DNA from: Bacteroidota bacterium | GTDB taxonomy: Bacteria; Bacteroidota; Ignavibacteria; UBA10030; UBA8401 | Direction of reading: 5' to 3' | Assembly: GCA_028873075.1 (NCBI GenBank) | Contig: JAGWND010000003.1 | Span: 1 to 44,049 of the forward strand | DNA: 44,049 nt | Shown here: in pieces, positions 28,918-42,869 of the stretch | How the letters are laid out: each line of letters opens with the position of its first letter | How positions within the stretch are numbered: position 1 is the stretch's first letter | Translations under genes and position numbers: made by a program | Notes under the pieces: generated by a model | Told to the model about the DNA's origin: nothing | Databases searched by the model: none | What the model saw: the letters and a program-made list of their open reading frames with translations, nothing else

Positions 28918-30414
28918 TCAATTTTTTGGGACATCTTCTCTGTTCCACCAGCCGCCGCCAAGCGCAAAGAATAACGCCGCTGTGTCGGCATACCGGTTCG
29001 CTCGCGCCTGCACAAGGCTGATCACCGCGTCTTGATATGTTTGTTCAGCGTTCAACAATGCGAGATAGTTTGTGTATCCCGCTTGCCATTGTTTCCTTGC
29101 TAAGTCGAGGGTCATTTCGGCAGCATTGTTAGCGTCAGCCGACGCCTTCAGCGTCGCGGCATCTTGCTCGAGAGCTTGAAGTACATCGGCAACATTTCGG
29201 AACGCATTGAGAACAGTGCTGCGGTATTGTTCTGCAGCTTGTGTGTATGCCGCTTTCGCCGCACGCTCTTGGTGCAGTAACTTTCCTCCTTCAAAAATCG
29301 GTTGCGTTGCGTTCGCAGCCATGTCCCAGATCCCCGTGCCACCTTTAAATAGAGTGGCAGGATTGAGCGCCATGCTTCCGATATCAGCAGTCAGAGTAAT
29401 AAGCGGCAGCCGGTTGGCTTCAGCAATTCCGATTTGTGCGCTTGCCGCGTGTAAATTTTCTTCCGCTTGCAAAATGTCGGGACGCCGTTCCACTAACTTT
29501 GAGGGAATGCTCTCAGGAAGTTCTTGCGGAAGCTGTAAGCTTGAAAGTGAAAACGTTTCAGACAAATCCTGGTTCGGAAAATTTCCGGACAGCATTGCGA
29601 GAAGATTGCGCTGCTGAGCGAGCTGTTTTTCCAGCGGTGGAAGCGTGGCGGTAATCTGAGCGAGCTGGGATTCCTGCTCGGCAACTTCGAGCCGGCCGAC
29701 ATACCCTTTCTCGAATTGCTTGTGCAGGATTTCAACCATGTCGCTATTGATGGTGATGAGTTGCCGCGTCGCATCAATCTGCGCGCGCAGCGATGCTTCC
29801 TGAATCGCCGCCGCAGCGACATTTGCGCTTACTGTAATGTGTGCTGCGATAAGAGCGAATCGGATTTGTTCTGCCTGCGCTTTGAATAGTTCAGCGGTTC
29901 GACGATATAGACCAAATACATCCGGTACGTACGAGACGCTCACTTGCGGTGTGAAAAGACTGAAATACACATCGCCTGAATTAGGCGTGGGTGAAATTTC
30001 TGACGCTGTTTTCGATCTGCTTGCTGAAAAATTTCCTGCCGCACTTGGATACAATGCACTGCGTTGCGCGAGAAAATTTTCCTGCGCAGCGGTTAAAGCG
30101 GCTTGAGCAGCTTTAAGATCGGGATTGTTTTTCAGCGAAAGCTCTATTAAAGCATTAAGCGGTTTCGATTGGAACAGTGCCCACCATTCTCCGGAAATAT
30201 CACTGTCTTCTATAAAACGTTGAGCACTCCCGCCGGAGAGATTCGCTGTGGAGTCGGTGGTCGAAAGAGGTTTTGTTGTATAGCCAGCAGTGCTGTCCGG
30301 AGGCGAAGGTTTTACAAAATCGGGACCGACAGTGCAGCCGGCGGTAAACAGCAAGAGTGTTGTAATAACCGAAACCCAATCTGATTTTTTCTGAGATAAA
30401 ATCATACAAATCAT
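28918..30414 (-). CDS. Efflux RND outer membrane factor (NodT/TolC-type lipoprotein)
   Basis: LLFTAGCTVGPDF, WWALFQSKPLNALIELSLKNNPDLKAA, paired OEP repeats. Confidence 0.95.
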   Translation of the reverse strand: MICMILSQKKSDWVSVITTLLLFTAGCTVGPDFVKPSPPDSTAGYTTKPLSTTDSTANLSGGSAQRFIEDSDISGEWWALFQSKPLNALIELSLKNNPDLKAAQAALTAAQENFLAQRSALYPSAAGNFSASRSKTASEISPTPNSGDVYFSLFTPQVSVSYVPDVFGLYRRTAELFKAQAEQIRFALIAAHITVSANVAAAAIQEASLRAQIDATRQLITINSDMVEILHKQFEKGYVGRLEVAEQESQLAQITATLPPLEKQLAQQRNLLAMLSGNFPNQDLSETFSLSSLQLPQELPESIPSKLVERRPDILQAEENLHAASAQIGIAEANRLPLITLTADIGSMALNPATLFKGGTGIWDMAANATQPIFEGGKLLHQERAAKAAYTQAAEQYRSTVLNAFRNVADVLQALEQDAATLKASADANNAAEMTLDLARKQWQAGYTNYLALLNAEQTYQDAVISLVQARANRYADTAALFFALGGGWWNREDVPKN

Positions 30415-30417
30415 TCC

Positions 30418-33400
30418 TTATACACTTTGTTTTATTTCCGCTTTAGTTACTTGATTTTTCTTGCGATCCAGAACAATCATTTTCAATGCGGGCACGACGA
30501 TGAGCAGCATAAGCGGACCAACTAACATACCGCCAACGATGACCGTTGCCAGAGGACGCTGCACTTGACTTCCAATTCCTGTGGAAATTGCCGAAGGCAG
30601 CAAACCAAGGCAAGCAGAGAGGCTTATCATAAGTATCGAGCGCATGCGAGTAGACGCGGCGTAAAACATCGCATTCATCGGTGCATCGCCGCGGAGCCGT
30701 GCGTGGTTGAAATACGTCATCAGTAGAATTCCATTCATAACGGAAACGCCGAAGAGCGAAATAAAGCCGATCGCCGCGGAAATACTGAAATTAAGTCCAG
30801 CAATATAAAGCGCTAATACGCCGCCGGCAATCGCAAACGGAATTCCTGAAAGAACCAACAAACACTCGCGCAATGAATTGAACATCGCGTAGAGAATGCC
30901 GAGAATAATGACAAGCGTAATCGGTACGATAATCGCCAGACGTTTTTGTGCAGCCTGAAGCTGTCCGAATTCTCCAGCCCACACAAGACGATAGCCGCTC
31001 GGGAGCTTCACGTTTTTTGCAATGCGCTCCTGCGCTTCTGCAACAGTGCTTCCAAGATCGCGTCCGCGCACGCTGAACTTTATCGGAATGAAACGCTCGG
31101 TGCTTTCATGATAGATCCATGAGGCTCCGTTATCAAAAGTGATCGTTGCCAATTCGCTCAACGGTATGTAGGCGCTTGCACCGCTTCGTGTTTGGTAGGC
31201 AACTTTGATGTTCGATATTTTCTCAACGTTGTCCCGGTATTCCTGCGGATAGCGGACAGCGACGTCAAACTGGCGGTCGTTCTCGAAAATTGTTGTTGCC
31301 GTCACTCCGCCCACTGCTGCCTGGATGATGGAATTCACGTCTCCGACGTTCAATCCGTAGCGTGCAGCTTTTGCTCTGTCCACCTTGATGTTAAGATTCG
31401 GCTGACCAAGGATCGGAAAAATCCCGAGATCGGCAACTCCCGGCACCTGTGCCATCTCATTGCGAACTTGTTCAGCCAATACTGTCAGCGTTTTTAGATT
31501 TGGTCCGATAATCTTGACAGAATTCGCGCCTTTGACGCCGGAAATCCCTTCCTGAATGTTGTCCTGAATGTATTGCGAAAAAGTAAAATTGACTCCCGGC
31601 AATTCCCGTTGGAAGTCTGCGTTAATTTGCTCAGTCAATTTTTCTTTTGTCATGCCTTTAGGCCACTGACTCAGCGGTTTGAGCGGCGCGAACAATTCAA
31701 CATTTGAAAACGGCGAAGCATCGCTGCCGTCATCGGGTCGTCCGTGCTGAGATGATACGGTGATGACTTCGGGGTATTTCATGAGTATCAGCCGCATTTT
31801 TCTTGCTGCTGCTTCACCATCCTGAAGTGAAAGCGTCATCGGCATGGACGCACGAATCCAAAAATTACCTTCTTCAAGGGCAGGAAGAAATTCACTTCCG
31901 AGGCGAGCTGCTAAAAATCCTGCGAGAGCGATGAAGAGAATTCCGGCGATGAGCATCGCTCTTCGTTTTGCAAGCGCAAACCGCAGTACCGGATTATAGA
32001 GACGGTGCAAAAACCGGACAACGATTGTCTCTGTTTCTTTCACATTCTCTGGAAGAAGAAAGGAAGAAAGAACGGGTGTAGCGGTGAATGTTGCAATCAA
32101 CGCGCCGGCAAGCGCGTACGCATACGTTCGCGCCATCGGTCCGAAGATGGCTCCTTCGACTCCTTGCATCGTGAAGAGCGGAACAAAGGCGGCAACGGTG
32201 ATGAGTGCCGAGAAGAGAACAGGATTGCCGACTTGTATAGCGCTGATCAGGATTTCTTTTAACCGCGTTGTCCAAGTTTGGTGCACTGAAGAGTGCAGCG
32301 CGTTTGTCGGATCGGGTCCCCAAAATCCGTCGGCGAGTTGACGAAGCAAACTTTCCCGTTCCTCCGGCGTTTTCTGAAAATTTCTGAAAATATTTTCGAT
32401 GAGAATAACCGATGCGTCCACAATAATACCGAGGTCAACAGCGCCTACCGAAAGGAGATTGGCGCTTTCGCCTCGTATCACAAGAATGATAACGGCGAAA
32501 AAAAGTGCAAACGGAATAGTCAAGCCGACAATAATTGCGCTTCGGAGATCGCCGAGAAAAATCCATTGAATGAAAAAAATCAGCAGCGTTCCGAAAATCA
32601 GGTTATGCAGAACAGTGCTTGTCGTAACCGATATTAACCAGCCACGATCATAAAACGGAACGAGCTTTACTCCGGGCGGCAGGCTGCCATCATGGTTCAT
32701 TTTGTTAATTTCGGCTTCAACCTTCGGCAGCAAGTCATGTGCACGCTCATCGCGGCTCATCACCACAATTCCCGCGACTCCGTCGTCTTCCTTATCGTGT
32801 CCCCAAATGCCGAGTCTCGGTACATATCCTACAGATACTGCAGCAACATCCTTTACCAGAATCGGAACTCCGTTCGATTGAGTGAGAACAACATTTTCAA
32901 TGTCATCGGTGTGGTAGCCCTGAGTCAAATCATCGTTTCCTCCGTCGTCCATTAATCCGACGCCGCGAATGTTGATGGACTGCTGACCGATTCGAATTTC
33001 CCGTCCACCGACGTTGATGTTCGCGTTATTCAACGCCGTGAGCACTTGAGGCACAGAAAGATTGTAGGCTTGAAGCTTGTGCGGATCAACATCAACCTCG
33101 AATTGTTTTGTCGGACCGCCCCACGAGTTGACTTGAACAATACCGGGAATAGTCAACAGGCGCCGCTTCACGATCCATTCCTGCACCGTCCGAAGATTTT
33201 CCAATCCAAAATGTTTCGGACCGATAACTTCGTAGCGAAGAATTTCTCCGGTTGTGCTGTTCTGTTGGATTGTTGGAACCAAACCTCCCGGCAGATTAAT
33301 ATTTTGCTGTATTGCGACTGCTGTTTGACTGTAAGCAAAATGAAAATCTACGCCGTACTTGAAAACAACCCGAACAAACGACAAACCGTAGAACGATGTT

Positions 33401-33651
33401 GAGCGAATGACATCAATTCCGGGAACAGTGTACAGCCCGATTTCAATCGGTCGCGTGTAGTAACGCTCCATTTCTTCAGCGGAAAGCCCCGGCGCTTGAG
33501 CGGTGACTTCAAGAATAACCGGCGTCGGATTAGGATATGCCTCGATGTTGAGCTGCTGGTATGCGGCGAATCCGGCGCCGAGGAACAGCAGCAAACAGAC
33601 GAGAACGATGGCGCGATGACTTAAACAAAACGCGATGATGGAATTCAGCAT
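30418..33651 (-). CDS. CzcA/CusA-family heavy-metal efflux RND permease
   Basis: 1077 aa; HME-RND TM4 motif VDLGIIVDASVILIEN. Confidence 0.95.
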   Translation of the reverse strand: MLNSIIAFCLSHRAIVLVCLLLFLGAGFAAYQQLNIEAYPNPTPVILEVTAQAPGLSAEEMERYYTRPIEIGLYTVPGIDVIRSTSFYGLSFVRVVFKYGVDFHFAYSQTAVAIQQNINLPGGLVPTIQQNSTTGEILRYEVIGPKHFGLENLRTVQEWIVKRRLLTIPGIVQVNSWGGPTKQFEVDVDPHKLQAYNLSVPQVLTALNNANINVGGREIRIGQQSINIRGVGLMDDGGNDDLTQGYHTDDIENVVLTQSNGVPILVKDVAAVSVGYVPRLGIWGHDKEDDGVAGIVVMSRDERAHDLLPKVEAEINKMNHDGSLPPGVKLVPFYDRGWLISVTTSTVLHNLIFGTLLIFFIQWIFLGDLRSAIIVGLTIPFALFFAVIILVIRGESANLLSVGAVDLGIIVDASVILIENIFRNFQKTPEERESLLRQLADGFWGPDPTNALHSSVHQTWTTRLKEILISAIQVGNPVLFSALITVAAFVPLFTMQGVEGAIFGPMARTYAYALAGALIATFTATPVLSSFLLPENVKETETIVVRFLHRLYNPVLRFALAKRRAMLIAGILFIALAGFLAARLGSEFLPALEEGNFWIRASMPMTLSLQDGEAAARKMRLILMKYPEVITVSSQHGRPDDGSDASPFSNVELFAPLKPLSQWPKGMTKEKLTEQINADFQRELPGVNFTFSQYIQDNIQEGISGVKGANSVKIIGPNLKTLTVLAEQVRNEMAQVPGVADLGIFPILGQPNLNIKVDRAKAARYGLNVGDVNSIIQAAVGGVTATTIFENDRQFDVAVRYPQEYRDNVEKISNIKVAYQTRSGASAYIPLSELATITFDNGASWIYHESTERFIPIKFSVRGRDLGSTVAEAQERIAKNVKLPSGYRLVWAGEFGQLQAAQKRLAIIVPITLVIILGILYAMFNSLRECLLVLSGIPFAIAGGVLALYIAGLNFSISAAIGFISLFGVSVMNGILLMTYFNHARLRGDAPMNAMFYAASTRMRSILMISLSACLGLLPSAISTGIGSQVQRPLATVIVGGMLVGPLMLLIVVPALKMIVLDRKKNQVTKAEIKQSV

Positions 33652-33665
33652 AATAATTCTCCTCC

Positions 33666-34658
33666 TTAATCTTCCGGCGGAGCTTGCAGCATGTTGCTGA
33701 GAAATACGCCCCCTCTGCTCACCATCTGTTCTCCGGGTCTAAGTCCATCGAGGATTTGGTATTCGTCGTCTCGCTGCAATCCTACTGTCACCTTTCTCTG
33801 GACGAAGCGGCAGCGGTCTGTCGTTACCCAGACGGTTAACGTACCGTCGCCTTCACGCACGATACCCGTAACAGGAATTGTTACAGCTTTTTTCTTGTCG
33901 CCGAAAAAATGTGCTGTTCCGAACATTCCGGCGCGGAGTTTGTTCTCAAGATTCGAAAGAATGATTCGGACTTTCGCGGTTCTCGTTGTTGGATCAATGA
34001 CATCGCCGATGGAGGAGACCTTTCCAATGAAGCGTTCTGCGGGATATGCGTTACACTCAATTTCAACTTTTGAGTTCGTTTTGATATTGGTGAGCTGTCC
34101 TTCTGGGACTTCGGCGGCAACGATCACCGTTCCTGCAGCCGTTTGCTCGAGCACCTTCGGATCAATTCCAGCAGCACGCAACTGGCTTTCTTTCTGTGCC
34201 ATATCTGCCTGCGATTGGTTGTAGTCTGTTTGTGCGTCGAGCAATTCTTTTTCTGCGATGGCTTTGTCTTTTGTCAAATCTTCCAAACGGCGGTAATTTT
34301 TTGACGAGCGCTCGACGGCAGAAACGCTTTTTACAAAATCGGCATACAATTGCGTTAAGTCCGGCGTTTCAAAAAGGTATACGTTGCCGTTTCCGAATTC
34401 GGAGCGCGCGATGCTCACAGCAAAATGCGCCGGAGCCGTAAACTCGGTTTGAATAGTTTCTTCGTGTACCGTATCAATGGTGAATTGTTGAAGCTGAAGC
34501 GAATTCGGTGAGAAAACAATTTCGTTTTCATCGTTCAGCACCTGCGGCGCTGAGATGTTTCGTCCCGAAGCCGCCCGGGCTTCATCTGAGCGATTGCATG
34601 ACTGTAATGCTAATCCATCCAAAATTATCAGCATGGGAATTAAAATTCTCGTGATCAT
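33666..34658 (-). CDS. Efflux RND periplasmic adaptor (CzcB-like)
   Basis: VIVAAEVPEGQLTNIKTNSKVEIECNAYP, VGLQRDDEYQILDGLRPGEQMVSRGGVFLSN. Confidence 0.93.
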   Translation of the reverse strand: MITRILIPMLIILDGLALQSCNRSDEARAASGRNISAPQVLNDENEIVFSPNSLQLQQFTIDTVHEETIQTEFTAPAHFAVSIARSEFGNGNVYLFETPDLTQLYADFVKSVSAVERSSKNYRRLEDLTKDKAIAEKELLDAQTDYNQSQADMAQKESQLRAAGIDPKVLEQTAAGTVIVAAEVPEGQLTNIKTNSKVEIECNAYPAERFIGKVSSIGDVIDPTTRTAKVRIILSNLENKLRAGMFGTAHFFGDKKKAVTIPVTGIVREGDGTLTVWVTTDRCRFVQRKVTVGLQRDDEYQILDGLRPGEQMVSRGGVFLSNMLQAPPED

Positions 34659-35402: not shown

Positions 35403-36902
35403 CTATTGCACAACAAACATTTTCTTTTCCCTGTCCCACAGTAAACGCGCACGATTTTTTCCCCACCACGTTTGGACTTTTGCAACATCCTTCACAGAAA
35501 ATGAAATTGGAATATGGCTTTGCAGATGATCGTGTGCGTCATCGGCGAAAATTCCGCCGTCCTGAATAAGGCGAATCATCGCCGGAATTGCGTCGGCATC
35601 TCCCAGCTCAAGTGCGGTTTCCAAAAACTGGATTTGCATCTCGGGGTCGTCCTCCGACTTCGACGCCTCGACAAGTTTTTTCGCGGAAACACCGTCGCCG
35701 AATGTCTTCACTGCAACAAGCACGCTTTGTTGAACGTCGTCTGATTTGTCGTTGAGAAGCGGAACGATCTGAGCTTCCGCTGAAGCGACGCGCGATTTCG
35801 TTAACAGGTCCACTGCGGCTTTACGCACTTCGGAATCTTCATCGTGAAGAGCTTTTGTAACAAGCGGAATCCATTCTTGTTGCTGTGCGGGAAACGAAGC
35901 AAGCATGTGAATACCCGATTGTCTTTCTGTGCTCGCTTGACTCTGAAGCAAATGCAATGCGTGTTCGAGAGGATCTTCTGCAGGTTTGCGGAAGAAAAAA
36001 ACACCCGCAATAAAAATTGCAACGACAGCAGCAGCCGACGCGAGATTTCTAACTGCAATAGAAACACGCTCCGCCGTTTTGATGTAGCGGTACATTCCGC
36101 TTATCAGTAAACCGGCTGCGAGCAAAACAACAACCAAGGGGCTTGTCGGAAGTCCGGTGTTCCACGAAAGCTTCACGCCGATGAAGCTGATGATCGCACT
36201 TCCGATCCAGCCGATTGCGAGCCGCGTGCTGAGTTTATCGGAAAGCATCATTGCTCCGACGGACGGAATGACGAGGTAGCTGAAGACGAGAAACACCCCC
36301 GCAATTGCCACTGAACTTGTGATGACGAATCCGAACGACATATAAAAGAGAAAATCCCATAAGCGGACATTGATGCCGCCCGCTTCCGCTCTTGCAGGAT
36401 CGAACGAGATTGCCATGAACTTTTTCCGGAAGATGAAATGGAACAACCCGACAATCGAATAAATGATTGCTGTTTTGATAACGACGTGGCCCTGTACCCA
36501 GAGCAGATCGCCTTTAATGATGTGATCGAGTTCCTGCGGACCGAGCGCGCTTTTTGAAAGGATCAGAATTGTTGCCGCGAACGTTACGGCATAGACAATG
36601 CCAATGATCGCTTCGTGCGGTACTTTTTCGCTCTTCATGCGTGTGGCGGAAAAGATGAACGCGCCGAAAATCGTGAATGCAAGCGAGTAAAGATACAATG
36701 CTGTAATATCCGTGCCAACTTCGTAACCGAGCAGCACGCCGATGACTGTTCCTAATGCGGCAATTTGCGCCAACGCAAGATCAACGAAAATGACTTTTCG
36801 TGCGACAACGTGAACACCTAAATAGACATGAATGCCGGTGAGCACGAGGCACGCCAGCAGCGGCCAGATCATTGTTGAGGGCAAATAGAAAAGTTGTTCC
36901 AT
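35403..36902 (-). CDS. Zn/Mn-type ABC transporter permease (ABC-3/ZnuB-like) with C-terminal HEAT-repeat domain
   Basis: ABC-3 TM domain (VARKVIFVDLALAQIAALG, VFSYLVIPSVGAMML) followed by HEAT-like repeats (LVTKALHDEDSEVRKAAVDLL, IVPLLNDKSDDVQQSVLVAVKTFG). Confidence 0.9.
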   Translation of the reverse strand: MEQLFYLPSTMIWPLLACLVLTGIHVYLGVHVVARKVIFVDLALAQIAALGTVIGVLLGYEVGTDITALYLYSLAFTIFGAFIFSATRMKSEKVPHEAIIGIVYAVTFAATILILSKSALGPQELDHIIKGDLLWVQGHVVIKTAIIYSIVGLFHFIFRKKFMAISFDPARAEAGGINVRLWDFLFYMSFGFVITSSVAIAGVFLVFSYLVIPSVGAMMLSDKLSTRLAIGWIGSAIISFIGVKLSWNTGLPTSPLVVVLLAAGLLISGMYRYIKTAERVSIAVRNLASAAAVVAIFIAGVFFFRKPAEDPLEHALHLLQSQASTERQSGIHMLASFPAQQQEWIPLVTKALHDEDSEVRKAAVDLLTKSRVASAEAQIVPLLNDKSDDVQQSVLVAVKTFGDGVSAKKLVEASKSEDDPEMQIQFLETALELGDADAIPAMIRLIQDGGIFADDAHDHLQSHIPISFSVKDVAKVQTWWGKNRARLLWDREKKMFVVQ

Positions 36903-36922
36903 AAAGTTTCCTTCGAGTGATC

Positions 36923-37294
36923 GTCATTTTGAGGTACTTATCCACGCCTTTGGCGTGGAAACTTCTTCTGCAATGACATTCGTTGTCATTCGTAGTCGTG
37001 GTTCGACTTCGCTCACCACGACAGCCGCCCTGAGCGAAGTCGAAGGGCGGAAAAAACCTCTTTCTTCTCGATGTCATTAGTAGGAGCGAAGCGACGAAGA
37101 ATCCAGCTTTTTGCCTCAAGGTAAAGTATGGATTCTTCGCTCCGCTGCTTATGACATTGGAGTCGTTCTGGGTCCCGCTGTTTTTTCGCTGATGCTCAGC
37201 ATGACAAACTCGGCCTAATTCGAAAGGCTGATCGGATGTCAATGCATGCGAAGATTCTTGACAAAGTCGAGATACATACCTCAGAATGACAAAT
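36923..37294. repeat. Cluster of palindromic repeats with GTCAT.../...ATGAC-type ends and GAAGAATC / GATTCTTCGCTCCGC cores
   Basis: CCACGCC-ttt-GGCGTGG (36942-36958); GTCGTGGT/ACCACGAC (36995-37022); CCGCCCT/AGGGCGG (37025-37050); ATGTCAT..GAAGAATCC/GGATTCTTC..ATGACAT (~37070-37157). Confidence 0.85.
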
Positions 37295-37314
37295 CAGAAG
37301 ATTCTTGTTTTCTG

Positions 37315-38346
37315 TTACGATGCTGCTTTCAATATTTTTTCAAGCAAATAGGTGATGAGGTTTTCGTACGTGTTCGCCTCCGGACTGGAATACACATCAA
37401 TGTACGTCACGATTACTTTTGCTCCGGTTTTACTCGCAACATAGTCCGCCGCATCGGTGGAATAAAAATTATCGTTTAAAATGACTTTCACGCCGTCTCG
37501 TTTTACAAGGTCAACAACTTCGTCACGATGCTTCGCTGGCGGCGGAATGCCCGGCTTTTCTTCAAGCTCCCCGGCAATTTTTACTCCGAAGCGGTCGGCG
37601 AAATAGATGTACGTTTTGTGATAGGAAATGATTTCCTTCCCTTGCAGCGGCTCTGCCATTTTCATCCATCCGCCTAACTTTGCATCGAGATGCCGCGAAG
37701 CAAGCCACGAATACAGCTCGCCGTCTTTTGTTTTGCGGGTGAGAATATCGCCCCCTTTTTTGCCGAGCAGGTCGAGCAATTCGCTGCCGTACATTTTTTC
37801 GTCGAGACGGTGCTTGAAGGCATCGAGTCGTTGCTGGTAATAGCCCGAATTTGTCGGGTCAATTTGTTGAAGCCGTGCAGCAATATTTTCTGCTACGATT
37901 CTCACGTTCAGCGGATCGAGCCAGATGTGTGGATTGCCCTGCGGATGGATATCGCCCCACGCGCGCGAAACTTCTGTCGGCAATTCTCTTACCGGCACAT
38001 TGATCGTCGCGATGAGATGTCCGGGATTTCCGACTCCGATATTCGGATTACCCGATGCGTCAATAACATTTTTTGCCCAGAGGTCGAGCGACAATCCGTT
38101 TTCGATGAACAAATCGGCGTTTGTTGTTACTTCATTCATGCGCGGCGTCGGCGTAACATAGTGCGGGTCCTGTTTTGGATTGGCAAGAGCCGTGACCGTT
38201 ACTTTATCCCCGCCGACCTGTTCCGTCACGTATTTGAGATAATTCAGCGTGACAACAACGTTTAATTTTTTTTGTGCCGCCGCTGAAACATGCGCTATTG
38301 AAAACGCCAGAAATACGGCAAGTAGTGCTGCGAAAAGTTTTTTCAT
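37315..38346 (-). CDS. Metal ABC transporter substrate-binding protein (ZnuA/TroA family)
   Basis: DPHYVTPTPRMNEVTTNADLFIENG, GNPHIWLDPLNV, ISYHKTYIYFADRFGVKIAG. Confidence 0.93.
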   Translation of the reverse strand: MKKLFAALLAVFLAFSIAHVSAAAQKKLNVVVTLNYLKYVTEQVGGDKVTVTALANPKQDPHYVTPTPRMNEVTTNADLFIENGLSLDLWAKNVIDASGNPNIGVGNPGHLIATINVPVRELPTEVSRAWGDIHPQGNPHIWLDPLNVRIVAENIAARLQQIDPTNSGYYQQRLDAFKHRLDEKMYGSELLDLLGKKGGDILTRKTKDGELYSWLASRHLDAKLGGWMKMAEPLQGKEIISYHKTYIYFADRFGVKIAGELEEKPGIPPPAKHRDEVVDLVKRDGVKVILNDNFYSTDAADYVASKTGAKVIVTYIDVYSSPEANTYENLITYLLEKILKAAS

Positions 38347-38400
38347 GATATTCTCCAAATTCTCAAGTTTTCCATTGACCATTTTTCGTCTTTCATGTTT

Positions 38401-39756
38401 TTATTTGTTCACCCAATATGGCTCTACCGGATGAGAGCCGAAGACGAAGTTTGCTCCAAAAAGTATTGAATTGGTGTTGTTCAGATTCGGCGCCAACGCA
38501 TCGCTCGTTCTGTGCTCGAAGCCGAGCCGGAAGCGGAGAAATTCCGTTGTGTAATAACTGACGAAAACAGAAATTTCCCGCGTCACTAATTGAGCATTTG
38601 ACGGTTCTTGTACCCAATCGTAACGAAGCCCCGCATACGTCCAGTATGAAAATTGATACTGAGCAAAGGTGTACCAACCGTACGGCTTGCGTGTTACCGT
38701 TCCTCCGGCAGGATTTGGTGTTGTATGATCGCCGAAGAAAATTTCTCCGCCGCCGACAAACGAATGATTTTCTCTTTGCTCGCTTGGCGCCCACTTATAC
38801 ATGAGGTTGCCTCCGACGAGATTCGTTGTTGTGATGCCGCTTTCGGTATAGCCGCTGACGCCGAGAACGAGCAGGTGCTCGTTGTTCCAATCCTGCGACA
38901 AGGTTAAATGCCCGAGATACGCGGTCTGTCCTCCCGGGTCGCCTGCGGATATTCCAAGCTCACTGCCGCGAAGAACGTCGGCGTTCATCTCGAATGTCGC
39001 AGAAGGAACCGGCGACGGGAGGAAGAATTGAAAATCGGCACCGACCGGATTGAAACCGGAATCAAAAAAGTTGCCGTGTTCTCCCCCTAGGTATTTTGAA
39101 ATCACAAGCGGGTATGTTGTCCACGGCAAATCGTGCAGGTGCGTGATGTTGCTGATGCCGATGGGAGCGAGATAGCGCCCGATTTTCACTTTCAACCCGA
39201 GCGGCGCGGTTTCGAGAATCGGCAGGCGTTTGATGAGGCCGTACGCTTCTTCCGCTTCAACACTGAACCCTTGCTGTGCATCGCTGTTGAGTGAAATGAT
39301 CGCGACGGCTTCAGCGTAGGGATCGACCGCAGAGCCTAATTCCATTTCTACCGCGCGGAGAAACGGGCGGTTGGAAATAACACTGCCGCCCGGCGCATCG
39401 TACACTGTGTCGTTGTCATGCCGCGCGGCAAAATTGATGAATGCCGTCATGCGCGGATTCAGAACGATCGGTGCCGATGCGCGAGACACGGCATCAACCT
39501 TGTTTTCCAGCCTCTGCATTCGTTGATCAATATTGTCTTCAAGCGCATCAAGGTCGTCTTCCGTTACCTGAGTCAACGATGTAGTTGTGCTGTCTGTTTT
39601 CAGGCTTTGAATCTCTTTGCGCAGTTCGTTAACCTCGTTTCGCAGCCGTTGAATGCTTGTCTCGCTGGTATCAGCCTGAGAATCCTTTGCGGATTGTTGT
39701 GCCATTATTGTGCCTGCGCATACAAACATTCCAACGGCAATCAAAAAATATTTCAT
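38401..39756 (-). CDS. Porin-like outer-membrane beta-barrel protein with N-terminal coiled coil
   Basis: Signal peptide, RLRNEVNELRKEIQSLK coiled coil, alternating barrel-like strands; adjacent to the ZnuA-like gene. Confidence 0.6.
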   Translation of the reverse strand: MKYFLIAVGMFVCAGTIMAQQSAKDSQADTSETSIQRLRNEVNELRKEIQSLKTDSTTTSLTQVTEDDLDALEDNIDQRMQRLENKVDAVSRASAPIVLNPRMTAFINFAARHDNDTVYDAPGGSVISNRPFLRAVEMELGSAVDPYAEAVAIISLNSDAQQGFSVEAEEAYGLIKRLPILETAPLGLKVKIGRYLAPIGISNITHLHDLPWTTYPLVISKYLGGEHGNFFDSGFNPVGADFQFFLPSPVPSATFEMNADVLRGSELGISAGDPGGQTAYLGHLTLSQDWNNEHLLVLGVSGYTESGITTTNLVGGNLMYKWAPSEQRENHSFVGGGEIFFGDHTTPNPAGGTVTRKPYGWYTFAQYQFSYWTYAGLRYDWVQEPSNAQLVTREISVFVSYYTTEFLRFRLGFEHRTSDALAPNLNNTNSILFGANFVFGSHPVEPYWVNK

Positions 39757-39828: not shown

Positions 39829-40251
39829 TTAGGCAGTCACGAAAGGAGGGCCGCGATGGAAATACGGCGATAAAACTTCAAAGGAAACTGCAGGAACAAA
39901 AGTGATATAGGGAAGGTAAAATGCTTTCTCTTCAGGCTGAACTGTGAACACGGCCGTCGGCATGAATGCTCTGCCGAAAATCCCTGAGCATACGGCACAT
40001 GTTTCGGTATGCGAGAGGTCAATATGGTGACAATGAGCAGCATCCGCGTGTGTTGAGACAGTCTCATATCCCGTGCCTATAACAAATATTGCTTCATAGT
40101 CGCGGTGAATGGGCACAAGAATAACCATACCCACGACGTAAAACGCGAGCACCCACGACGAAAGCTTTTTATTGATACGGGAAATCATTGATGCATAAAA
40201 GATACAACATTCTAAACCAAATACAAGGAAAAAGGTTCCGCTTTGCGACAT
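39829..40251 (-). CDS. Small His/Cys-containing membrane protein (DUF2946-like)
   Basis: TM segment, HADAAHCHHIDLSHTETCAVC, ends HRGPPFVTA. Confidence 0.5.
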   Translation of the reverse strand: MSQSGTFFLVFGLECCIFYASMISRINKKLSSWVLAFYVVGMVILVPIHRDYEAIFVIGTGYETVSTHADAAHCHHIDLSHTETCAVCSGIFGRAFMPTAVFTVQPEEKAFYLPYITFVPAVSFEVLSPYFHRGPPFVTA

Positions 40252-40792: not shown

Positions 40793-40898
40793 CAGCGAAA
40801 ATGAAATAAAGATATCAGCGGCTCGAAAACGCCGTCAGGTATCATTACGTTGAGCAATGATAAATTTTTCTTTGCGGTACTTAACGAAAGAAATCTCT

Positions 40899-42869
40899 AT
40901 GCGTTGGTATGTTATCAGTGCGCTGGTGTGTTTCCTTTTTTCAACGGCGTGGTCGGAAGATTCGCCGCCGGATACATCAGCCAAAGTTGTTCAGCTCCCA
41001 GAGGTAACGATTACTTCCGCTCCTGTCGCTCGCGAATTGCCGGTGAGTTCGGTAGTCGTTTCTCCGGTGGCGATTCAAAGAACCGTTGCGACAGATTCGT
41101 GGGATCTTCTTCGTCAAACTACGGGAATTGAAGTTCATGAACAGGGACAAGGACCCGGCTTCGCATCGGATGCATCCATCCGCGGCTTCAGCTCTGATCA
41201 CTCGACCGACCTCGCGCTTTGGATTGACGGAGTGCCGGTGAACGAGCCGATTAACGGACACGCGGAAGGATACAATGATTTCAGCCTTCTGATGCCGGAA
41301 GCGATCCACTCGCTCAATCTCATCAAAGGACCGACCAGCGCGCTGTACGGCAATTTTTCTATGGCAGGCGTGGTAAATGTTCGGACGCTTGAACGCATGG
41401 ACGGAACGGACATTCGTGTTTCCGGCGGCACGTTCGGCAAGCTGGAAGGATCTGCATTGAGCGGTTTTGATAACGGTAGCAGCAGCGGAGTATTCGGCAT
41501 TCGCGGCATTCAGAATCAGGGTTGGCGGCCGAACAGCCAGTACGATCTTGAACAAGCACATGCTCGGTATTTGCAGAATGTATTTTCCGATGCAACGATT
41601 GATGCCGGGGTGGAATTGTACTCTGCCAATTGGCATTCTCCCGGCTCGCTTACTGCGGCACAGTTCGCTCAACGCCAGTATAATGTTGTCGCGAACTCAA
41701 CTGACGGCGGATACAAACGCCGCGCACAGGAACGAGTGAGTTTGAGATTTTCTCCCGACTCCATCATGTTCTGGCGGACGACTATTTTTGCTACACAGGG
41801 GCGCTGGCAGCTTTTTCTCACAACGCCGCCGGAAGGTGGATTGACAGAAGGCTCCGGAAATCAAACGGAAGAAGAGGACAAGCGTTACGGTCTTGGCGGA
41901 ACAAGCGCGTTGACATGGCAGTTTCCGCAGAGTGAAATTACTGTCGGTGTAGAAGGAAAGCTCGATCATTCGAATTACGAGAACTGGTTTACAACCAATC
42001 GGGAAAGAGATTCAGCGCAGATACTCGTTTCGGCACGGCAGAGTGCCGGAGCGTTCTTTTTTCAATCGGAAGAAAATGTCGGCGATGCAAAGTTCACTCT
42101 CGGCGGACGTTATGATATTCTCAGTGTAGAATCTGTACCGGAAGGTGGCGGAACGTTGAATAATGCCAAGGGAATTTTTTCTCCGAAGCTCGGCGTAATG
42201 TATTCCTTTCCCGAAAACTTTTCCGTCTATGCAAACATCTCGCGCGGATTTCGCTCAACAGATGGTACAATAGAAGATCCATCGCTGCCGTTCATCACCG
42301 CATGGGCATACGAGACAGGAACAAAATTCGATGCAGATGTTGCCAGCGGCAGTGTTGCGCTCTTTCGGATGAATGTGAGCAACGAACAGACATTCGACCC
42401 TGTTACGCTCACTTCAACAAACGGGGGAAAAAGCCGCAGGCAAGGAGTGGAAGTGTCGGCGATGATTCGCTTTACAAATCAGGTTCGTTTCATCACTGAT
42501 GTAACGTTCAACGATGCACGTTATGAAAATTTAATTACGGAAGGTGGGGACACGCTTTCCGGTGCACGCGTGTACAACACGGCAAAATGTGTCGGCGATG
42601 CCGCGCTCGACGTTGTTCCGAACGCTCAGTGGCAGTTCCGTCTCAATTCGGATATTGTCGGTCCCTATAGTCCGTTTGATGAACCGGGAGTAGTGTTGCC
42701 GCCGTACGTTATTTTTTCGATGACAATCGGTACACATATCGGCGATGCATTTCTTCAGTTGGGAATCAAGAATCTTGCGGACAAAGCGTACCCCGAATTG
42801 CGTGCAGGCGGATTTGTCAATCCCGGTCAACCGCGCACGTTGTACGGAACAGCGTCGTATTCGTTTTAG
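40899..42869 (+). CDS. TonB-dependent outer-membrane receptor
   Basis: Plug domain LPEVTITSAP, SIRGFSSDHSTDLALWIDGVPVNEP, INLIKGPTSALYGNFSMAGVVNV-like region; C-terminal barrel ending SYSF. Confidence 0.92.
   Translation: MRWYVISALVCFLFSTAWSEDSPPDTSAKVVQLPEVTITSAPVARELPVSSVVVSPVAIQRTVATDSWDLLRQTTGIEVHEQGQGPGFASDASIRGFSSDHSTDLALWIDGVPVNEPINGHAEGYNDFSLLMPEAIHSLNLIKGPTSALYGNFSMAGVVNVRTLERMDGTDIRVSGGTFGKLEGSALSGFDNGSSSGVFGIRGIQNQGWRPNSQYDLEQAHARYLQNVFSDATIDAGVELYSANWHSPGSLTAAQFAQRQYNVVANSTDGGYKRRAQERVSLRFSPDSIMFWRTTIFATQGRWQLFLTTPPEGGLTEGSGNQTEEEDKRYGLGGTSALTWQFPQSEITVGVEGKLDHSNYENWFTTNRERDSAQILVSARQSAGAFFFQSEENVGDAKFTLGGRYDILSVESVPEGGGTLNNAKGIFSPKLGVMYSFPENFSVYANISRGFRSTDGTIEDPSLPFITAWAYETGTKFDADVASGSVALFRMNVSNEQTFDPVTLTSTNGGKSRRQGVEVSAMIRFTNQVRFITDVTFNDARYENLITEGGDTLSGARVYNTAKCVGDAALDVVPNAQWQFRLNSDIVGPYSPFDEPGVVLPPYVIFSMTIGTHIGDAFLQLGIKNLADKAYPELRAGGFVNPGQPRTLYGTASYSF

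Follow-up and report, generated by a model that had tools for sequence, protein, structure and literature searches.

An ATPase is the defining part of ABC importers. The described systems closest to the one examined here are the ABC-3 (cluster IX) metal importers PsaBC/PsaA, ZnuABC, MntABC and AztABC. The FecCD type II importers BtuCD-F, FhuCDB and HmuUV have a permease of the same overall fold but belong to another subfamily, take larger substrates and have an ATPase in all cases. Binding proteins also feed the ATP-free TRAP and TTT transporters, whose membrane proteins are unrelated and whose substrates are organic acids. A part of an ABC-type importer can also do without its motor: transport by solitary ECF S-components such as BioY is possible without the ECF module (PMC4820897), although no periplasmic binding protein serves these components and their fold is unrelated.

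We analysed a 44,049-nucleotide stretch of DNA (the window) from a Bacteroidota bacterium of the class Ignavibacteria. It encodes a permease and a ZnuA-type binding protein with conserved histidine ligands, both homologous to those of the ABC-3 importers. The clade to which this permease belongs differs from those importers in lacking an ATPase gene, in having a porin-like gene in the operon, in fixing D41, Q46 and E97 instead of the canonical DxxxH motif, in having lost the coupling segment in part of its members and in often carrying an extra transmembrane helix and a predicted periplasmic domain. Unlike TRAP and TTT systems, which it would resemble if its transport is ATP-free, it has an ABC importer permease as its membrane part; and while the ATPase module of ECF systems is optional, here the ATPase was lost from the whole clade. 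A sequence-only reading of the window had singled out HEAT repeats fused to the permease. The main anomaly is the missing ATPase, ahead of the HEAT domain.

A permease fused to HEAT repeats

The ABC-3-type permease, its extra transmembrane helix and its C-terminal HEAT repeats are encoded by a single uninterrupted open reading frame of 499 codons on the minus strand (35403..36902). Pfam places ABC-3 (PF00950) at residues 10-270 (E = 2.6e-34; 119.4 bits against a cut-off of 20.1) and the best HEAT_2 stretch at residues 346-423 (E = 8.7e-18); ABC-3, FecCD and HEAT were the only families matched, with no TRAP- or TTT-type membrane subunit among them. The best NCBIfam match of the permease part, TIGR03770 (anchored repeat-type ABC permease), reaches 76 bits, far under its cut-off of 296.8 bits. 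An AlphaFold2 model built from a 27-sequence alignment (A1) has a mean pLDDT of 88, and the HEAT part lies mostly at 92-97. In this model the permease core (residues 10-275; 36078..36875, minus strand) consists of nine helices (2-35, 39-57, 66-86, 96-116, 138-157, 179-201, 203-220, 224-249 and 253-276), one more than the "eight or so" of the sequence-only reading, along with a short helix at 121-130 and two more within 159-174. An extra helix follows at 280-303 (listed as residues 281-303; 35994..36062, minus strand) and encloses the segment VAIFIAGVFFF, which had been recognized as transmembrane-like; beyond it a helical solenoid spans residues 311-486, the HEAT-repeat domain (35445..35972, minus strand). 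With this model as query, Foldseek returned PsaC at the top (TM-score by target about 0.80), followed by BtuC-type permeases and designed HEAT-like alphaRep proteins. Pfam, AlphaFold2, Foldseek and full-length homologues all bear out the original proposal of an ABC-3 permease fused to HEAT repeats.

The predicted fold also suggests on which side of the membrane the HEAT domain lies. Residues 159-174 match a coupling segment that is cytoplasmic in the homologous fold, and the four modelled helices up to residue 276 would bring the chain back into the cytoplasm, from where the extra helix would lead it outward. Across 90 family members, predicted cytoplasmic loops carry a mean of 1.2-4.3 lysines and arginines, against 0-1.9 in loops predicted to be periplasmic, which are richer in aspartate and glutamate; the stretch behind the extra helix carries 0.57 lysines and arginines and 1.12 aspartates and glutamates. 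Because the helix count and the positive-inside charges agree, the periplasm is the most likely location of the HEAT domain, which would then lie on the same side of the membrane as the docking site of the binding protein.

A scan of 84,980 species genomes for relatives of the permease yielded 33 loci. Ten of these hold full- or near-full-length matches to the fusion (54-69% identical, one of them, L013, frameshifted), from Ignavibacteria and Bacteroidetes MAGs. Since these homologues were found independently and share the architecture, a frameshift or assembly chimera, which the sequence-only reading had named as a possible origin, is ruled out. Nor is the architecture widespread, the other concern: 12 of the 294 genomes sampled from the class have the full HEAT version, and ABC-3 plus HEAT occurs in about 20 Ignavibacteria in all. 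The fusion is thus genuine, conserved and confined to a lineage. Directly after the membrane, its HEAT-type members have a DPxxHxxH helix (residues 310-320; 35943..35975, minus strand) in which H314 is kept in 12/12 and H317 in 11/12.

Across the clade, 38 of 90 members have an extra transmembrane helix and a C-terminal extension, and the other 52 have no long extension. The position of the HEAT domain is often taken in Deltaproteobacteria, Myxococcota and Calditrichota by a linker rich in histidine and a small helical domain that weakly resembles HEAT repeats (E about 0.01; 3.7e-9 in L023). The model of one such protein, L026, has an extra helix at 279-307, a disordered His-rich linker at 313-339 and a helical domain at 343-458. 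The HEAT domain is a late, optional addition. As the His-rich and helical domains vary by lineage, a common role for the additions past the extra helix is only suggested. Three permeases outside the HEAT-type subgroup (L016, L026 and L207) have 8-12 histidines per 55 residues right behind the extra helix.

An operon of a probable porin, a binding protein and a permease

In the window, the permease gene shares its operon with the gene for a ZnuA-like metal-binding protein (37315..38382, minus strand; PF01297, E = 5e-51), which matches only itself in this genome. H74, H146, H152, H255 and E274 are invariant in 81/81 such binding proteins, so a divalent metal is still the likely substrate of the clade. 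Directly upstream, and conserved in the clade, stands a gene whose product, with an N-terminal coiled coil, is probably an outer-membrane porin, matched by homology between loci and without a confident Pfam match (38401..39756, minus strand). Genome comparison shows the identical order of porin, binding protein and permease, with no ATPase gene, at related loci with readable flanks in Ignavibacteria, Acidobacteria, Elusimicrobia, Deltaproteobacteria, Verrucomicrobiota, Neomarinimicrobia, Myxococcota, Calditrichota, Gemmatimonadales and others. All 90 non-redundant clade members, which come from about ten phyla, share this ATPase-free operon. The binding-protein gene lies directly upstream of the permease gene in 87 of 90 clade members, with a median gap of 7 bp.

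In the window, the gap between the ZnuA and permease genes (36903-37314) measures 412 bp and holds a repeat-like element, CCTGAGCGAAGTCGAAGGGCG, present in one copy within the window. A gene for a small DUF2946-like protein with Cys/His motifs (39829..40251, minus strand; Pfam match weak, E = 5.7e-4) lies upstream of the porin gene, as it does at L007, L012 and L160, and may belong to the operon. The flanks (28918-34658 and 40857-42869) encode a metal-type RND efflux system, comprising an outer-membrane factor, a pump and a CzcB-like adaptor, and a TonB-dependent receptor. Tandem clade permease genes behind the binding protein at L204 and L234/L236 suggest heterodimers. Fur and Zur boxes in the window were matched at chance level only, none of them close to the operon, and a search of a plasmid collection gave no match.

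The ATPase is missing from operon and genome

No ABC importer ATPase stands beside the permease at any of the 33 loci, and scans for Walker A and signature motifs on both strands around the permease loci revealed no overlooked importer ATPase. Apparent candidates were rejected as partners: the reading frames near L147 and L148 encode ATPases of the ABC-2 type (LSKGYRQR), and that of L034 sits in an apparent Pst cluster. A linked ATPase is absent from 90/90 non-redundant clade members and present in 17/17 sister or canonical ABC-3 operons. Three genomes encode both kinds of permease (G299, G305 and G306), and in these the canonical one adjoins an ATPase gene and the clade permease does not. Distant relatives (L152-L155) have the order ZnuA, ATPase, permease, with a porin upstream where readable; their ATPase gene lies exactly between those for binding protein and permease, the site of the short gap in the clade.

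Because E. coli ZnuC was too insensitive a query, missing the ATPase of L114 at 1e-25, we built a profile (A3) from sister-clade ATPases. It gives 218-351 bits for ATPases adjoining ABC-3 permeases (eight genomes) and at most 210 bits in each of the 32 genomes whose only ABC-3 permeases are of the ATPase-less type; 19 of these have nothing above 170 bits, and 13 have an ATPase of a FepC-like tier (182-210 bits). The best score in the window's genome, which is 100% complete and has a single ABC-3 permease, is 147 bits. This genome lacks ATPases of the ZnuC and FepC types as well as any type II importer besides this one; its ABC ATPases, as called from motifs and neighbours, are of the ABC-2, MacB/LolD/FtsE, MalK/PotA, RbsA, MsbA, UvrA and ECF types. 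The sequence-only reading had assumed candidate ATPases, but neither operon nor genome has one of the ZnuC or another type II importer type. Of 18 genomes tested among those with only the ATPase-less type of permease, 15, the window's included, have no FecCD permease. The genomes are mostly MAGs, and the absence of the ATPase recurs across many of them, several of which have an estimated completeness of 99-100%. ZIP transporters occur in 17 of the 18, so the clade system need not be the sole route for metal.

In the ATPase of L114 (L114:761-1456), whose gene adjoins that of the closest ATPase-linked sister permease, the expected H-loop site carries a deletion (LIQYSNL). This ATPase may already be inactive and a possible intermediate, as judged from this single sequence.

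The ATPase-less permeases form one clade

We compared 107 non-redundant permeases, 90 without and 17 with a linked ATPase. The 90 are monophyletic (support 0.975), so a single loss fits, and the ATPase gene was probably lost once. In a 60-tip tree the clade has a support of 1.0, and the ATPase flags inside it, at L147 and L148, are the unrelated ABC-2 genes. Comparison of the same set shows residues fixed within the clade: R35, D41, Q46 and E97 are found in 90/90, and position 31 is histidine in 85 and glutamate in five. ATPase-linked permeases have G, S, A, T or P at position 41, and 16 of 17 have aspartate at 97. The pair D41 and Q46 occurs in 90/90 ATPase-less and 0/17 ATPase-linked permeases with no mixed case (Fisher 4e-20, uncorrected for relatedness and inflated by shared ancestry). 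Q46 aligns with H50 of PsaC, and D41 is offset from D46 of PsaC; D46 and H50 bind metal in PsaC. The canonical D-x3-H motif of the second transmembrane helix is absent, GDAISHAVLPG having become FVDLALAQIAALG.

Of the 90 clade members, 12 have a shortened or deleted segment at the site of the ATPase-docking coupling helices, and five of these have lost 14-15 residues there; no such shortening occurs among the 17 ATPase-linked permeases. The window's protein retains the segment (residues 159-179; 36366..36428, minus strand), and the HEAT subgroup keeps a coupling-like form, FDPARAEAGGINVR. The transmembrane core, including polar residues within its helices, is strongly conserved across phyla.

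Discussion

We think it reasonably probable that these proteins form a three-part metal importer fed by a binding protein, which derives from the ABC-3 family, has lost its ATPase, takes up metal without ATP and in some lineages uses a periplasmic HEAT domain for docking or relay. Metal would enter the periplasm through the outer-membrane porin, and the ZnuA-like protein would bind it and hand it over to the permease from the periplasmic side. Movement inward through the permease would then proceed without ATP, driven perhaps by the membrane potential that acts on divalent ions, by protons or by the two together, and the clade-fixed H31, D41, Q46 and E97 may serve this movement. By way of the extra transmembrane helix, the HEAT domain would come to lie next to the docking face on the periplasmic side, where its most likely role would be to hold the binding protein and relay metal through the conserved DPxxHxxH helix at its base. 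The sequence-only reading had proposed that the HEAT domain docks a partner or handles metal; such a role is plausible and gains from the predicted periplasmic site, though the missing ATPase contradicts the ordinary zinc permease in which it had been placed.

Other readings account for part of these data. ABC importer permeases normally depend on an ATPase, and some sugar importers have one in common; a conventional importer that shares the ATPase of another transporter, encoded at a different locus, would explain the coupling-like segment of the HEAT subgroup and could draw on the FepC-tier candidates of 13 genomes. We consider this unlikely, as none of the 32 genomes has an ATPase of the ZnuC tier, 19 lack even the lower one, the window's genome offers only ATPases of other types, in 15 of 18 genomes such an ATPase would have no second type II importer permease to belong to, and part of the clade has deleted the docking segment. 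The motor loss and the varied His-rich and HEAT additions in the periplasm would also suit a system that has given up transport, with permease and binding protein acting as a periplasmic metal sensor, a store or a metallochaperone platform. That is improbable given the strongly conserved core with its polar helix residues, the probable outer-membrane pore retained in the operon and the lack of an attached cytoplasmic signalling domain.

An ordinary ABC-3 zinc permease whose HEAT domain senses metal or docks a partner would agree with the Pfam matches and the PsaC-like fold, but is very hard to reconcile with an ATPase missing from operon and genome and with the altered GDAISHAVLPG motif. The HEAT domain might finally be cytoplasmic and replace the ATPase, being joined to a permease that has none. 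We give this almost no credence: the predicted topology places it in the periplasm, and most ATPase-less members (52/90, without a long C-terminal extension) have no HEAT domain, so it cannot be a substitute. The same HEAT-free relatives speak against the earlier suggestion that it stands in for an accessory subunit.

Returning to the ATP-free importer that we favour, we regard the chances as evenly balanced that one loss of the ATPase and the fixation of acidic, histidine and glutamine residues in the pathway converted a whole lineage of ABC importers into secondary, binding-protein-fed metal transporters. A literature search on HEAT-fused or ATPase-less ABC-3 permeases, which covered subscription journals in part, found nothing relevant, and this widespread ATPase-less branch of bacterial metal importers is apparently undescribed. 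If the proposal is true, the permease fold would be capable of transport without ATP, with the residues to test already named; a further kind of binding-protein-dependent uptake would stand alongside ABC, TRAP and TTT systems; and the clade would provide a natural example of the change from primary pump to gradient-driven transporter. Because family searches label the clade's proteins as ordinary ABC-3 metal permeases, both the energy cost and the mechanism of metal uptake may be misjudged in reconstructions for Ignavibacteria, Myxococcota, Verrucomicrobiota and other groups.
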